NCBI RefSeq assembly: GCF_003367395.1
Contig: NZ_CP031417.1
Span: 3,038,001-3,102,000, forward strand
DNA length: 64,000 nt
Reading direction: 5' to 3'
DNA from: Pseudolabrys taiwanensis
Lineage (GTDB): Bacteria; Pseudomonadota; Alphaproteobacteria; Rhizobiales; Xanthobacteraceae
Part shown: positions 46,328 to 53,206 of the stretch, one piece after another
Position numbering within the stretch: position 1 is the stretch's first letter
Layout of the letters: the number at the start of each line of letters is the position of its first letter
Made by a program: the position numbers and the translations under genes
The notes under the pieces: generated by a model
Seen by the model: the letters and a program-made list of their open reading frames with translations, nothing else
Told to the model about the DNA's origin: nothing
Databases searched by the model: none

Positions 46328-47500
46328 CTATTTCGCCTTCGCGGGGTCCTTCACCGCGTCGATCTTGTCGAACTCGACGTTCTGGTTCGTGCCGCCGACC
46401 TTCTCGACGCGGCGGATATAGACCGTCTGCACGATGTCACGCGTTTCGGGATCGATGGAGATCGGCCCGCGCGGGCTCTCCCACTTCATGCCCTTGGCCG
46501 CGGCGATGAGACTGTCGCCATCGGCCTTGCCGCCGGTCTTCTTCAGCGCCTCGTAGATCAGATGCATGCCGTCCCAGCCGCCGATGGAGAACACATCGGG
46601 GTTGCGCTTGAACTCGGCGTTATAGGCCTTCACGAAGTCCTGGTTCATCTTCGACTTGTGTTCCCAGCCATAGTGAAACACGGTGCGGATGCCCACGGCC
46701 GCATCGCCCATGCTCTTGAGCGCGTTGTCGTCCATGGTGATCTCGCCCTGGCCGAGGATCTTGTTGCCCGGGAAGCCGCGCTCCTGCATCGCCTTGGTGA
46801 TGGCGATCGGCTGCGCGCCGCCCGGGATAAAGATGAAGATGGCGTCGGGGTTGATGTCCTTGGCACGCTGCACGAAGGCGGAGAAGTCGGGATTGGCGAC
46901 CGGCATGCGCACGGAGCCGACGATCTCGCCGCCCGCGTCCTTGAAGCCCTTCACGAACCAGGTCTCGGCATCGATGCCGGGGCCGTAGTCCGAGACCATG
47001 GTGTAGATCTTCTTCAGGCCATTCTTGAACGCCCACTGCCCGAACGGATGCTCGAGCTGCGGAATGGTCAGCGAGGTGCGCGCGATGTAGGGCGACTTGG
47101 TGGTGATCGCCGAGGTTGCGGCGTTCATGACCACCATGAACTTCTTGCCCTCCGCCGACACGTCGCCCGCGCCGAAGGCCTCCGGCGTCAGCGTGAAGCC
47201 GGCCAGGATGTCGACCTTGTCACGCACGACGAGTTCCTGCGCCAGGCGCTTGGCGACGTCCGGGTTGGGGCCGCCGGTGTCCTTGCGGACGAACTCGATC
47301 TTCTTGCCGGCGACGGTGTCGCCGTGCTGCTTCACATAGAGCTTGATGGCATTGTCCATCTGCGCCGCGGTGTCGGCGAACTGGCCGGAATAGGCCATGA
47401 TCAGGCCGACCTTGACGGTCTGTTGGGCGCTGGCCGCGCTCGCCGTGAGCAATGCCGCGGCCAGGACAAGCACGGATTGTCGTGTGAACGTGATCATCAA
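46328..47500 (-). CDS. Branched-chain-type periplasmic binding protein (LivK family), solitary
   Basis: 390 residues with a signal peptide (cleavage near ASAAQQ). Periplasmic-binding-protein class I fold: TVKVGLIMAYSGQFADTAAQM, NPDVAKRLAQELVVRDKVDIL, KKIYTMVSDYGPGIDAETWFVKGF and FIFIPGGAQPIAITKAM. LivK relatives bind Leu/Ile/Val, aromatic acids, amides or urea for ABC import. The gene is isolated: no livHMGF genes are adjacent, so the cognate transporter lies elsewhere. Terminator-like stem follows. Confidence 0.92.
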   Translation of the reverse strand: MMITFTRQSVLVLAAALLTASAASAQQTVKVGLIMAYSGQFADTAAQMDNAIKLYVKQHGDTVAGKKIEFVRKDTGGPNPDVAKRLAQELVVRDKVDILAGFTLTPEAFGAGDVSAEGKKFMVVMNAATSAITTKSPYIARTSLTIPQLEHPFGQWAFKNGLKKIYTMVSDYGPGIDAETWFVKGFKDAGGEIVGSVRMPVANPDFSAFVQRAKDINPDAIFIFIPGGAQPIAITKAMQERGFPGNKILGQGEITMDDNALKSMGDAAVGIRTVFHYGWEHKSKMNQDFVKAYNAEFKRNPDVFSIGGWDGMHLIYEALKKTGGKADGDSLIAAAKGMKWESPRGPISIDPETRDIVQTVYIRRVEKVGGTNQNVEFDKIDAVKDPAKAK

Positions 47501-47695
47501 CTCCTCCCTGAAGCCGTTTCTTTGCGCGACGGCATACCCGGCAGGTTAGCGGCAATCCCGCACAGCGTCACGATCACGTGGCGACGTTCGGCCCTCCAAA
47601 CCCGGACGGGACCGCGCCGGCACGACGATAGCCCAATACCACCTCCCCAAACCGACTCACCTTTACGATGGGCAGATCGGGCGGGGCTGCGACGG

Positions 47696-48253
47696 ATGGA
47701 ATTCTCGATTGGGCGCCCGGACGTCGTCCGGGCAGTCAATCAGCGCTGGCTTTTGAAGTTTTGGCAGGCTCACCGCGGTCCACATCCCGTACCGCGGTGG
47801 CAAGGCGTCGTGGTGGAAAAGCTGTCCGACCGCTCGGCCAATCTGAGCATGCTGACCGTGACCGGCGACGGGGAGGCCCCCCGGTTTCAGATTCGGTTCA
47901 ACGGCAGCATCATCGACAAGGCCTACGGCTCCCCCGACCACCGCGGAAAGCACCTCGACGAGGTCATGCCGGCGCTTATGCGCCCCGACGGCCTGCCGCC
48001 TTTCACGCGAGCGGCCAGGGACGGCTGTCCGATTTACACGATCCACACCATCAGGGACCGCGACGGCCGCGTCGTCCAGTACGAACGGCTGCTGCTGCCG
48101 TTCTCCGGCGACGGGCTCCGCGTCGATCGCGTGCTGGTGTCCTCCGAGTTCGTCTGTCTCGACGGCGCGTTCGACGGCGACAACATCATGCACGTACAAA
48201 CCGCGCCGCCCGTACTGGAGCTGGCGGCGAAGATCGAGATGGCGGCGGCCTAG
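47696..48253 (+). CDS. PAS_5-type domain protein
   Basis: 185 residues from ATG 47696. Near the start the residues NQRWLLKFWQAHRG and VPRWQGVVVEKLSDRSANLSML match the single-PAS (PAS_5) proteins of Alphaproteobacteria; the barrel continues with FQIRFNGSIIDKAYGSPDHRGKHLDEVM and ends in a strand with VVQYERLLLPFSGDGLRVDRVL. No other domain is attached, so it is a free PAS sensor or binder of unknown partner. Convergent with the DUF2189 gene; start sequence has a weak ribosome site. Confidence 0.8.
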   Translation: MEFSIGRPDVVRAVNQRWLLKFWQAHRGPHPVPRWQGVVVEKLSDRSANLSMLTVTGDGEAPRFQIRFNGSIIDKAYGSPDHRGKHLDEVMPALMRPDGLPPFTRAARDGCPIYTIHTIRDRDGRVVQYERLLLPFSGDGLRVDRVLVSSEFVCLDGAFDGDNIMHVQTAPPVLELAAKIEMAAA

Positions 48254-49030
48254 CTATGGCGCCGGCGCGACGACGCGCCGATAGAGATGCCAAGTGGCGT
48301 GGCCGAGCACCGGCAGCGTCACCAGCAGGCCGACGAAGAACGGCAGCACCGACACGATCAGCACGACCACGATCACCAGCGCCCAGCCGATCATGGGCAA
48401 GGGGCTCATCACCACCGCGCGCACGCTGGTGATCATCGCGGTGACGAAGTCGACGTCGCGGTCGAGCAGCAATGGAAACGACACCACGGTCAACGAGAAC
48501 AGGATCAGCGACAGGACGGCGCCCTCGACATTGCCGACGACGAGGAACGCCAGCCCCTCGTTGGTCGTGAGCACGGCGCCGATGAACCCGTGGATGTCGC
48601 TGAACGAGGCATGGAGGCCGAGGAACAGCGCCATCAGGAAGCGCACCTGATACATCCACATGATGAAGATGAAGAGCGTCACGAAGGCCATCCAGCCGAG
48701 TTCGCCGCGCGTGCGGATCGCGCGCCAGATGTCGCGCGCCGACGGCGCTTCGCCCCTTTCGCGGCGCCGGCTCACCTCGTAGAGCGCGATGGCGGCGAAC
48801 GGCCCGATCAGCGCAAAGCCCGCCGCCAGCGGGTAAGCGAGATAGGTCATGCCGAGCGCGGTGACCGACAGCACGATGAGATTGCCTCCGGCCGCGTACA
48901 GCGCGCCGACGGCGAGACCGTAAAGCGGCATGGCCTGAAAATCGCGCAGGCCCTTGCCGAGCGCATCGATCACGTCGGCCGCGGCGATCGGGCGCACGAC
49001 GGGATCGACCTTCCCCGAAATGACAGACAT
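48254..49030 (-). CDS. DUF2189 membrane protein
   Basis: 258 residues from ATG 49030 (GGGGTGGAAACG upstream). The sequence matches DUF2189/YciC-like polytopic membrane proteins: IAAADVIDALGKGLRDFQAMP, then about six helices including LAYPLAAGFALIGPFAAIALYEVSRRRERGE and FPLLLDRDVDFVTAMITSVRAV. Function unknown; the family is found in many Proteobacteria, often near oxidase or stress genes. It is the last gene of the small minus-strand cluster behind the microprotein. Confidence 0.88.
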   Translation of the reverse strand: MSVISGKVDPVVRPIAAADVIDALGKGLRDFQAMPLYGLAVGALYAAGGNLIVLSVTALGMTYLAYPLAAGFALIGPFAAIALYEVSRRRERGEAPSARDIWRAIRTRGELGWMAFVTLFIFIMWMYQVRFLMALFLGLHASFSDIHGFIGAVLTTNEGLAFLVVGNVEGAVLSLILFSLTVVSFPLLLDRDVDFVTAMITSVRAVVMSPLPMIGWALVIVVVLIVSVLPFFVGLLVTLPVLGHATWHLYRRVVAPAP

Positions 49031-49147
49031 CGTTTCCACCCCACTTTTTTTCATTGTTGGGCGAAACTCTGCGCCAGCGCTTTGCTCTTCGTCAAAACGA
49101 AAGCGCCGCGCAAAGCGCGGCGCTTCTGCATCGAATCGGCTCGACCG

Positions 49148-49993
49148 CTAAGGCCGGACGGCCGGGCGGCCCCAATCCCACAGCGGACTCAGGGCCTCGC
49201 GACCGTCGCGATGCCGGCCGGCCGCGCAGGCCGCATACCAGGCGCAAACCGCTCCGATCAGCGCGGCAGCCCCGGCCATGAACCCGAGCACGATACCGCT
49301 GCGCCGGGCGCGATTGAGATTCTCCTGCGCGCTGGCAATGACAGTGTCGACGCGGCGCTCGGCATCGGCCGGCGCGAGACCGGTCATGGCCGCGGTCAGC
49401 CGCACGAGATAAGCGCGGTCATCGCTTTGCATGCCGCGATGGCTGGGCGCCGTGAGCAGGATGCGCGCGGCCTCGGCCCGCGGATAATCCATGTTGCCAG
49501 GCGGACGCCGCTCGCTGCGGAACAGCCGGTCGAGATCGAAAGCGATGATGTTCTCGCCGGCGACCGAGGTCGACGCTGCGCCTGCGGAGGGCGCGGCGAG
49601 ACGCGGCACCGCTTGCGCCGCCGCGATCACCATGATGCCCGTGAGCAACGTTGCCAGCCCCCACACGAGGAGACCATGCATGCCGTCGCGAAATTCCGCA
49701 TCGCTGCTGACGCCCGCCAACGGCGTCTGCAGCCGCGCCGTAACGTAAGCGCCGAACGAATAGGACACGATCGCCAGCAGCACCAGATAAAGCCCGGCCA
49801 GAAACACCAAGGCAAAGGACGTATCGCGCCACGTCGGCGCGGTCGACGATAGCGACAGCCCGAGCGCCGCTGCAAAGCTATGCAGCACAAACGCAAGCGC
49901 GGATGCAGCGATCGCTCCGGCGATCACGGCACCCCACGAAACATTCGACGTTCGATCGGTTGCGATGGTCGCAACCTGCGTTTCCATGGCCAT
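49148..49993 (-). CDS. Membrane protein of unknown function
   Basis: 281 residues with GGGAGACACCCT before ATG 49993. Starts with a cytosolic stretch and helix (SWGAVIAGAIAASALAFVLHSFAAALG), then a second helix (ALVFLAGLYLVLLAIVSYSFGAYVTARLQTP), a third (GLLVWGLATLLTGIMVIAAAQ), a long loop with ENIIAFDLDRLFRSERRPPGNMDY and a final helix (GIVLGFMAGAAALIGAVCAWYA). I recall this architecture from Bradyrhizobium 'hypothetical membrane' proteins that follow the 24-residue microprotein. Probably co-transcribed with it from the candidate EcfG promoter. Confidence 0.75.
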   Translation of the reverse strand: MAMETQVATIATDRTSNVSWGAVIAGAIAASALAFVLHSFAAALGLSLSSTAPTWRDTSFALVFLAGLYLVLLAIVSYSFGAYVTARLQTPLAGVSSDAEFRDGMHGLLVWGLATLLTGIMVIAAAQAVPRLAAPSAGAASTSVAGENIIAFDLDRLFRSERRPPGNMDYPRAEAARILLTAPSHRGMQSDDRAYLVRLTAAMTGLAPADAERRVDTVIASAQENLNRARRSGIVLGFMAGAAALIGAVCAWYAACAAGRHRDGREALSPLWDWGRPAVRP

Positions 49994-50014
49994 AGGGTGT
50001 CTCCCGTCCCGTTC

Positions 50015-50089
50015 TCAGCGCAAGCCGAGGAACGAAAGAATGGCCATGATCACGACAATCAAACCGACCAGATAGATAAGCCCGTTCAT
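50015..50089 (-). CDS. 24-residue hydrophobic microprotein
   Basis: Very short gene from ATG 50089 with an excellent ribosome site GGAGGGCAGGG. The product consists of one membrane helix, MNGLIYLVGLIVVIMAI-LSFLGLR (split only for length), ending in a basic residue. Microproteins of this pattern are recurrent in Hyphomicrobiales. Behind it, 21 bases away, lies the 281-residue membrane protein gene. A candidate EcfG promoter is centred 57 bases before the ATG, so it is likely expressed in the general stress response. Too short for most annotation pipelines. Confidence 0.75.
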   Translation of the reverse strand: MNGLIYLVGLIVVIMAILSFLGLR

Positions 50090-50133
50090 CCCTGCCCTCC
50101 TCTTCGTGTACCGCCGCGGCCACGCGCGTGAGA

Positions 50134-50158
50134 AACGGAAAGCGAGAGGGTTTGTTCC
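50134..50158 (-). promoter_or_regulatory. Candidate EcfG promoter of the microprotein operon
   Basis: On the minus strand GGAAC (50158-50154), 16 bases, CGTT (50137-50134): a perfect match to the EcfG consensus. The predicted start would leave a leader of about 40 bases before the microprotein ATG at 50089. Confidence 0.65.
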
Positions 50159-50254
50159 CTCTTGCGCTTCATTGCAGCAAGATTCCCGTGGCGATCTATC
50201 GAGAAGACGAGGGAAGTCGGTTATACTGACGGCATTCCGCTCAGGAGAAGACCG

Positions 50255-51241
<987 letters not shown>

Positions 51242-51285
51242 GCGGAGACGCAGACACCGTACTGCTTGTCCCGGCTTCGAAGCGC

Positions 51286-51373
51286 GTCATGCCCGGCCTT
51301 GGGCCGGGCATCCACGTTTCCAACGATCGCAACAAAGAGAAGCGTGGATGGCCGGGACAAGCCCGGCCATGAC
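51286..51373. repeat. Palindromic repeat between two convergent genes
   Basis: GTCATGCCCGGCCTTGGGCC and its inverse ending GGCCGGGACAAGCCCGGCCATGAC form an 88-base element with two hairpins, between the aldo/keto reductase and the FadE5-like gene. Probably a bidirectional terminator as well as a dispersed repeat. Confidence 0.75.
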
Positions 51374-51430
51374 CGGCGAAGAGGCCCTCTTAAAGCGCCA
51401 AAGAAGATCCGCTTCGTTTCCGCTCGACGA

Positions 51431-53206
51431 TCAAAACGCCTCGGCCGGCAATTCCATCGTGCTCGCCGCGCCGGTTTCGATGCGCGAGAGCCGCGTCGCG
51501 GTTTCCGGCAGCATGCGCTCCATGAAGAAGCGGCCGAGCACCAGCTTGGTGTTGTACTGCTGCGCATCGCCCTCCTTGGCGGCGAGCTTGGCCTGCGCCG
51601 CTTCGGCGATACGGCACCACATGTAACCGAGCGCGACCAGGCCGAACAGGTGCATGTAGTCGTATGAACCCGCGCCGGCATTATCGGGCTTGGCCATGGC
51701 GTTGTTCATGAACCACATGGTCGCCTGCTGCAGATGCGCCAGCGACTTCTCCAGCGGCTTGACGTAGGGGCCCATCGCCTCGTTGGCGGCGCGGTCCTTC
51801 ACATAGCCCTGCGCCTCGTTGAAGAAGGCCATGATGGCGCGGCCGCCATTGCGCGCGAGCTTGCGGCCGACGAGATCCAGCGCCTGGATGCCGTTCGCGC
51901 CCTCGTAGATCATGGCGATGCGCGCATCGCGCACGAACTGCTCCATGCCGTGCTCGGCGATGTAGCCATGACCGCCGAACACCTGCTGCGCCAGCACCGT
52001 GTTGGCAAAGCCCATGTCCGTGAGCACACCCTTCACCACCGGCGTCAACAGACCCATGGCGTCGTCGGCCGATTCGCGCTGCTTGGTGTCGGGCGAGCGA
52101 TGCGAGATGTCGCCGTTGAGCGCGGTCCAGATCACCAGCGCGCGGGCCGCCTCGTTGAAGGCACGCATGGTCATCAGCACGCGGCGGACGTCGGGATGCA
52201 CGATGATCGGGTCGGCCGGTTTGTCGGGCGCTTTCGCGCCGGTGAGCGCGCGGCCCTGCAAACGCTCCTTCGCGTAGACGACCGCGTTCTGGTAGGCGAC
52301 CTCCGACAGCGCAAGGCCCTGCAGGCCGACGCCCAAACGCGCCTCGTTCATCATCGTGAACATGGCGTTGAGGCCGCGGTTTTCTTCGCCGACCAGCCAA
52401 CCGGTCGCGCCGTCATAATTCATGACGCAGGTCGAGTTGCCGTGAATGCCCATCTTCTCTTCGATCGAGCCGCAGGACACGCCGTTCGGTGCGCCGTCCA
52501 GGAGTTTCGGCACGACGAACAGCGAAATGCCCTTGGTGCCCTCGGGCGCGCCTTCAATGCGCGCGAGCACGAGATGGACGATGTTTTCGGTGAGATCCTG
52601 TTCGCCGCCGGAGATGAAGATCTTGGTGCCGGAGATCTTGTACGAGCCGTTGCCCTGCTTCACCGCCTTGGTGCGCAACAGACCGAGATCGGTGCCGCAA
52701 TGCGGTTCGGTGAGATTCATCGTGCCGGCCCACTCGCCGGAGATGAGGTGCGGCAGATACTTCTGTTTCAATTCGTCGTTGCCGTGCTGAACCAGCGCGG
52801 CGACCGCACCCTGCACCAAGCCCGGATACATCGAGAAAGCAAGATTGGCGGAAGCGAGATATTCGTTGACGATCACCGTCAGCGTGCTCGGCAGCCCCTG
52901 GCCGCCGTATTCGCCCGGCGCCGACATGCCGATCCAGCCGCCGTCGCGCAGTTGACGATAGGCATCCTTGAAGCCGGTCGGCGTCGTGACGCGTCCATCC
53001 GGGTGACGCGTGCAGCCTTCCTTGTCGCCGACACGGTTGAGCGGGGCGAGCACCTCTTCGGTGAACTTGCCGGCTTCGCGCAACACGGCCTCGACCACGT
53101 CCGGGGAGGCGTCGGCAAATCCGGGCAGGTTGTTGTAGCGATCGATGTGGAAGACGTCGTTCAGCAAAAACAAGGTGTCGTCGACGGGCGCTTTGTAGGT
53201 CGGCAT
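51431..53206 (-). CDS. FadE5-like long acyl-CoA dehydrogenase
   Basis: 591 residues from ATG 53206 with GAAGAGGAAAC upstream; the frame is open further upstream into noncoding sequence. Acyl-CoA dehydrogenase of the long form (about 600 residues) with an added C-terminal helical domain: APVDDTLFLLNDVFHIDRYNN at the N-terminus, MNLTEPHCGTDLGLLRTKAV in the FAD-binding region, and the catalytic Glu context MIYEGANGIQALDLVGRKL. This type (FadE5 of Mycobacterium, AcdA in Pseudomonas) accepts medium to long chains. Not clustered with other fad genes here. Confidence 0.94.
   Translation of the reverse strand: MPTYKAPVDDTLFLLNDVFHIDRYNNLPGFADASPDVVEAVLREAGKFTEEVLAPLNRVGDKEGCTRHPDGRVTTPTGFKDAYRQLRDGGWIGMSAPGEYGGQGLPSTLTVIVNEYLASANLAFSMYPGLVQGAVAALVQHGNDELKQKYLPHLISGEWAGTMNLTEPHCGTDLGLLRTKAVKQGNGSYKISGTKIFISGGEQDLTENIVHLVLARIEGAPEGTKGISLFVVPKLLDGAPNGVSCGSIEEKMGIHGNSTCVMNYDGATGWLVGEENRGLNAMFTMMNEARLGVGLQGLALSEVAYQNAVVYAKERLQGRALTGAKAPDKPADPIIVHPDVRRVLMTMRAFNEAARALVIWTALNGDISHRSPDTKQRESADDAMGLLTPVVKGVLTDMGFANTVLAQQVFGGHGYIAEHGMEQFVRDARIAMIYEGANGIQALDLVGRKLARNGGRAIMAFFNEAQGYVKDRAANEAMGPYVKPLEKSLAHLQQATMWFMNNAMAKPDNAGAGSYDYMHLFGLVALGYMWCRIAEAAQAKLAAKEGDAQQYNTKLVLGRFFMERMLPETATRLSRIETGAASTMELPAEAF

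Follow-up and report, generated by a model that had tools for sequence, protein, structure and literature searches.

KdpF is encoded by the first gene of kdpFABC and CydX by the last gene of cydABX; acrZ is not known to lie next to the gene of its partner. The common lower limit of gene finders is about 30 codons, and the two peptides treated here, microproteins A and B, lie below the length that is usually reported. The EcfG response protects alphaproteobacteria, including rhizobia, yet for many of the genes that it targets no function is known. In Sinorhizobium meliloti, according to one study, 150 of 202 rpoE2-dependent genes lacked a predicted function and RpoE2 motifs lay upstream of 23 sRNAs (PMC3616915), some of which might be microprotein mRNAs. 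Ribo-seq in the same species, as described in a further study, revealed SEP6, a protein of fewer than 30 amino acids with one predicted helix that was found mainly in the membrane pellet and is conserved in Hyphomicrobiales (PMC10117765). The accessible portion of PMC10903887 makes no mention of rhizobia or alphaproteobacteria.

We examined a locus within a window (the whole stretch of 64,000 nucleotides that was analysed) from a genome of 5.59 Mb held on a single contig. A preliminary description of this DNA had seen, in a row on the minus strand, a perfect EcfG motif with N16 spacing, a strong ribosome site, a 24-residue ORF with a single helix (microprotein A) and a 281-residue membrane protein (here MP), followed by a DUF2189 protein. 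The sequence confirmed the order from promoter to MP, and for A both coordinates and description were right. The features are as follows.

50134..50158, minus strand: EcfG-type promoter site GGAAC-N16-CGTT, 44 nt ahead of the start codon of A; a motif match whose placement is kept in relatives
50096..50101, minus strand: ribosome site AGGAGG, 6 nt ahead of the ATG at 50089
50015..50089, minus strand: gene of microprotein A, with 24 codons and a stop, encoding a single hydrophobic helix; supported by its family and coding signature
50000..50005, minus strand: probable ribosome site GGGAGA of MP, 6 nt ahead of the MP ATG; identified by eye
49148..49993, minus strand: MP gene, a 281-aa membrane protein of no named family; from ORF, family searches and model
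49103..49118, minus strand: terminator-like hairpin with a T-rich tail, 3' of MP; a consensus match with a weak z-score
48254..49054, minus strand: DUF2189 membrane protein gene (PF09955, 131.6 bits); a neighbour, probably outside the conserved unit

The A ORF encodes MNGLIYLVGLIVVIMAILSFLGLR and ends in a TGA at 50017-50015, leaving a gap of 21 bases before the MP ORF (49993-49148). MP is separated from the DUF2189 gene by the hairpin at 49118-49103; terminator-like sites numbered 4 in the stretch versus 1.5 expected, and the hairpin's folded 91 nt had a z-score of -1.1.

Members of family A share the consensus MNxIIYLVGLVVVVxAILSFLGLR. Searching with the single sequence gave matches in 20 of 100 relatives, a count that includes the host genome itself, and the match in G015 (E 1) is apparently no family member. 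A 20-row profile at E up to 0.01 located A in 118 of the order's 397 genomes, again including its own; a 30-row profile detected it in 34 of 387 genomes drawn from the class and in 24 of 199 drawn from the phylum, 8 of these lying outside the class. From at least 150 places 100 were fetched and joined with the loci that the single-sequence and 20-row searches had brought, which gave 135 distinct copies, the weak match L143 (score 21) being left out. The ORF is 24 codons long in 132 of these copies and 25 codons long in the other 3, and 134 begin with ATG or GTG (for one copy, L024, the profile start lies one codon ahead of the ATG). Differences per site at the three codon positions were 0.36/0.11/0.56 over the 135 copies, the median dN/dS was 0.21 (912 sampled pairs), G9 and G22 were invariant, and Y6, L18 and S19 nearly so. 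The conserved length and start, the codon-position differences, the low dN/dS and the two invariant glycines together indicate that A is a gene under protein-level selection, a real ORF rather than a chance one. A Shine-Dalgarno-like four-base word precedes A in 130 of 135 relatives. Pfam yielded no family for A or B up to E 10, which is a weak test for queries of 24 residues; no Pfam or NCBIfam family passed the cut-off for A, B or MP, including the MP of the window, and the A profile matched no PDB chain at E 1. In L018, L136, L137, L146 and L084 there are A genes in tandem, with some 130-210 nt separating them. At the seven A loci inspected outside the alphaproteobacteria (L185, L187, L191-L195), neither MP nor an EcfG site was found.

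The EcfG motif by itself was rejected as evidence, as it shows no genome-wide excess: exact GGAAC-N16/17-CGTT occurs 124 times in the genome versus 146 times for the pattern read backward. Within the window, the looser GGAAC-N16/17-GTT was found 3 times versus 2.4 expected. The window's promoter match rises above chance because both the ORF and the placement of the site are conserved in relatives. An exact site lay within 150 nt upstream of A in 42 of 135 copies. Shuffles led us to expect 0.11; the opposite strand had a site in 1 of 135 cases, and control ORFs of the same loci in 8 of 625. When exact or GGAAC-N16/17-GTT sites were accepted the count rose to 65 of 135, versus 10 of 135 reverse complements of the upstream regions and 21 of 625 control ORFs. 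With at most one mismatch in nine, 15-130 nt upstream, a site was present at 90 of 135 copies but in only 1-2% of shuffles; this held for A copies directly ahead of MP (40/59, versus 1.3% of shuffles) and for the others (50/76, versus 2.4%), while in 18 of the 59 coupled copies (19 counting all) the best site had two or more mismatches. Joint conservation of the EcfG site and the A ORF, the point on which the earlier reading could have failed, was found. Among plasmid copies inspected by eye, S. meliloti L361 and Ensifer L360 carry an exact site, L362 has one mismatch, and Beijerinckia L359 shows no site. NepR, a marker of the EcfG partner switch, is present in the host genome (G000) at 398512-398607. 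It was found in 26 of 34 A-positive alphaproteobacteria (23 over the cut-off), in 3 of 17 A-negative ones and in none of 8 A-positive genomes outside the class; this correlation was set aside as an argument, the A-negative genomes being the first ones listed and many of them small. Overall, A is very probably a genuine EcfG-linked microprotein.

MP was located directly downstream of A, on the same strand, at 59 of the 135 copies and elsewhere in the locus at one. In 75 of the 135 A loci MP was not seen, with L005, L073 and L092 covering less than 520 nt from the A start. As two thirds of the 76 copies not coupled to MP moreover have an EcfG-like site of their own, A is not a mere accessory of MP. 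Seen from the other side, MP occupies 118 places, spread over 111 of the order's 397 genomes, a count that leaves out three second fragments of split matches. A was initially found upstream at 57 of these places, and inspection of all other 61 (51 fetched, 10 via B loci) added one more. The search for the microprotein upstream of the 49148-49993 gene that the preliminary description had proposed thus places A ahead of MP at 58 of 118 places; the unrelated microprotein B is upstream at 39 and solely downstream at 4, and neither is found at 17, nine of which belong to one genus (g115) and one of which is the second MP of the host genome. In all, MP has A or B as its immediate neighbour at 101 of 118 places. 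The spacing from microprotein to MP ranges from a 4-nt overlap to about 50 nt. Across the fetched loci, 206 of 244 MP ORFs had A or B upstream, as did 49 of the remaining 917 ORFs, a comparison inflated on both sides since loci were picked for A, B or MP. Between coupled and solo A peptides (39 versus 70 distinct peptides), residues 2, 6, 10 and 15 are not alike; M15, for instance, is carried by 28 of the 39 coupled ones but by no more than 5 of the 70 others. These differences would fit contact with a partner but may reflect ancestry. Where the two genes are coupled, we consider the chances even that A is a functional partner of MP. Among the matches listed, two MP relatives bearing the name Pseudolabrys showed 64-65% identity. 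The host genome has a second MP (L327, G000:C1:5361000-5365000) of 34% identity that is without a microprotein; GGAAC-N16-TGTT was noted by eye upstream of it.

The DUF2189 protein had been included in the putative unit, and this part did not stand up. In the fetched loci DUF2189 was not found beside any other A-MP pair, where loci with 1.5-kb flanks would show it only in part, and it is absent from L234 and L257, longer loci near the window's MP on the tree; it was for this absence that we rejected it as a third member. Elsewhere DUF2189 lies directly upstream of a few solo A genes on the same strand (L235, L277, L302 and L033; L065 is the same place). Of the proposed stress-induced membrane module, what remains is A and MP, for which protein-level selection, the conserved EcfG-type site and the repeated linkage to MP speak.

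Microprotein B (MGRGILLWLLGVPIPIIILLALFFR) is unrelated to A and 23-27 aa long, and with a length of 23-25 aa it fills the same slot upstream of MP. Its motif GILLWLLGVPIPIIILL was found in L310-L315, L319, L320, L323-L325, L329-L358, L369-L372 and others, and B was detected in 66 of 199 genomes from the order, with weak matches towards the end of that list. B stands ahead of MP, behind MP or solo, and 15 of 30 B loci had it ahead of MP and 15 did not. An EcfG-like site with at most one mismatch was present at 27 of these 30 loci, 15 of them exact, as raw counts with no shuffle baseline. The coding signature resembles that of A (codon-position differences 0.32/0.10/0.54), and L7, W8, G11 and P13 are invariant in 84 B versions picked by profile. 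Operons with both microproteins also occur: of 167 MP loci, 27 have the order A-MP-b and 4 the order A-B-MP. These loci were gathered mostly via A and so are biased to A, and L165 and L287, scored among them as lacking A, are cases of misplaced starts. On an MP tree of 109 rows built by a quick method, the B-upstream label changes 3 times and marks essentially one clade with few exceptions, while the A/b label changes 4 times and the AB label 2 times. These label changes suggest that the exchange of A for B ahead of MP may have been a single event and that B joined or left A-MP operons several times.

Further B-like genes were seen. The host genome carries one, MGRYMLLWLLGVPLPLLLLIWVFGGLH, at about 313070-313150 on the minus strand (L363, G000:C1:311500-315000; E 3.5e-4), with GGAAC-N16-TGTT upstream as judged by eye; the opposite strand has an exact EcfG site at 313248. 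Sequence search gave no B match in plasmids, yet a B-like ORF lies behind MP in the Beijerinckia plasmid pBIND01, so the plasmid search is insensitive to queries this short. The MP locus L326 has a B-like ORF downstream and, upstream, a hydrophobic ORF of 50-58 aa that is preceded by an exact EcfG site and presumably resembles DUF3309.

Attempts to name MP through its relatives gave only weak matches among 109 alignment members, a set that includes 11 A peptides and one fused chain. An NCBIfam anti-sigma factor model matched 5 members and Pfam TerB 2 (best E 0.00077 each), and the lowest E, 0.00045, belonged to DUF6069 in one member; all three were taken as chance and rejected as the identity of MP. 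A single-sequence fold was poor (pLDDT 55). In a fused model, in which A was read through to MP with the 109-row alignment, residues 101-160 and 181-300 reached 84-97 (block means), whereas A was of low confidence (56-71), as was the first MP helix, and the model carries no interface score; as a prediction it speaks neither for nor against contact between A and MP. Comparison of this aligned model with solved structures gave no convincing match.

We propose that A and MP would form an operon of two genes belonging to the general stress response of alphaproteobacteria. Judging from the site, its conservation and the presence of NepR in the genome, sigmaEcfG would transcribe A-MP under stress. 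A would be a 24-residue single-span microprotein of the inner membrane, its insertion being predicted from sequence, and the second gene would yield MP, which has some four long helices in the membrane. A would most likely pack against it by way of the small residues G9 and G22, which never vary, and, as a small subunit, stabilise MP or set its activity. In other lineages the unrelated B would replace A in this slot or be added behind MP. We infer EcfG dependence, translation, inner-membrane insertion and packing against MP from sequence. As a whole, the reading of a two-gene EcfG stress operon with A as small subunit or modulator of MP, and B in the same place elsewhere, is in our judgement about as likely to be right as wrong. 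The broader proposal falls a little short of that: A and B, two unrelated families of fewer than 30 residues, would act as interchangeable or joint subunits of MP within a largely unannotated layer of EcfG membrane microproteins, in permuted operons (A-MP, B-MP, A-MP-B, A-B-MP and MP-B), and would act solo elsewhere. Further roles for A and B outside the MP pair are suggested by the many solo copies, most of which have their own EcfG-like site.

The same solo copies are the main strength of the leading rival, in which A needs no partner and, as a stress peptide, works directly on the membrane (its packing, fluidity or potential), while MP is merely a co-regulated neighbour. Here belong the 76 of 135 A copies not directly ahead of MP, 50 of them with an EcfG-like site, the tandem pairs in several genomes and the occurrence of A outside the alphaproteobacteria in the absence of MP, together with the precedent of YohP, which reportedly lowers membrane fluidity and potential and is protective under stress (PMC12719787). 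However, A or B beside MP at 101 of 118 places is far above random for genes present about once per genome, and coupled and solo A sequences differ. We regard this rival as plausible but less likely than not. That A belongs to a type I toxin-antitoxin system, as its small hydrophobic toxin, is improbable: size, hydrophobicity and tandem copies would suit it, but the conserved operon placement behind a stress promoter would not, A had no Pfam match at E 10, and there was no Rfam match at E 0.1 in 47500-51500, a search that an undescribed antisense RNA would escape. Slightly less probable still is that the A ORF is a leader whose translation couples or tunes that of MP. The short distance to MP would allow this, but amino acids are conserved while synonymous positions change, 76 A copies are not ahead of MP, and the same slot is occupied by the unrelated B with a conserved sequence of its own. 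A chance ORF beside a chance promoter match, for which only the lack of excess of exact EcfG sites over the backward control speaks, is contradicted by codon-level conservation and by a peptide whose sequence and length, start codon, ribosome site and promoter position are all kept in relatives, and can practically be dismissed.

With tblastn, A was found in 68 plasmid records. Among the 60 listed, 55 had no annotated feature at A, 4 were unannotated and 1 carried a longer overlapping hypothetical protein, so that A is missing from nearly all plasmid annotations among the matches listed. Plasmid matches of MP (40 records, among the matches listed) were labelled 'hypothetical protein', had no feature or came from an unannotated record. 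In PLSDB, whose gene table is incomplete, the MP gene of the Beijerinckia plasmid is listed and A is not. Sequence fragments of A and B were absent from the main texts of the literature searched, supplements lying outside that search, and novelty of A and B in print is not proven. The exchange of A and B in one operon slot offers a testable lead both to the role of an uncharacterised stress membrane protein and to the way in which so short a peptide, of 24 residues, can serve a specific partner.

Several described proteins invite comparison. AcrZ is a small transmembrane modulator of a large membrane protein (PMC7267776), as A may be. Unlike acrZ, A is often encoded beside its putative partner. 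SEP6 resembles A in size, single helix and conservation in Hyphomicrobiales, as given in PMC10117765; in one S. meliloti record A is present, preceded by an exact EcfG site, and SEP6 could be A, B or something else. YohP of E. coli is a membrane peptide of 27 residues that is made under stress and has no catalytic activity (PMC12719787), a description that A would share; unlike YohP, A is often coupled to MP. KdpF and CydX (for CydX, PMC4325964) are similar in arrangement, each a tiny single-span subunit encoded beside a larger membrane partner. Their partners are an ion pump or an oxidase, whereas that of A is an unnamed protein, and A and B differ further in having no Pfam match, a stress promoter and common solo copies. 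Conserved gene adjacency to a partner, as in KdpF, is what this locus displays, at 59 of 135 A copies and 101 of 118 MP places.
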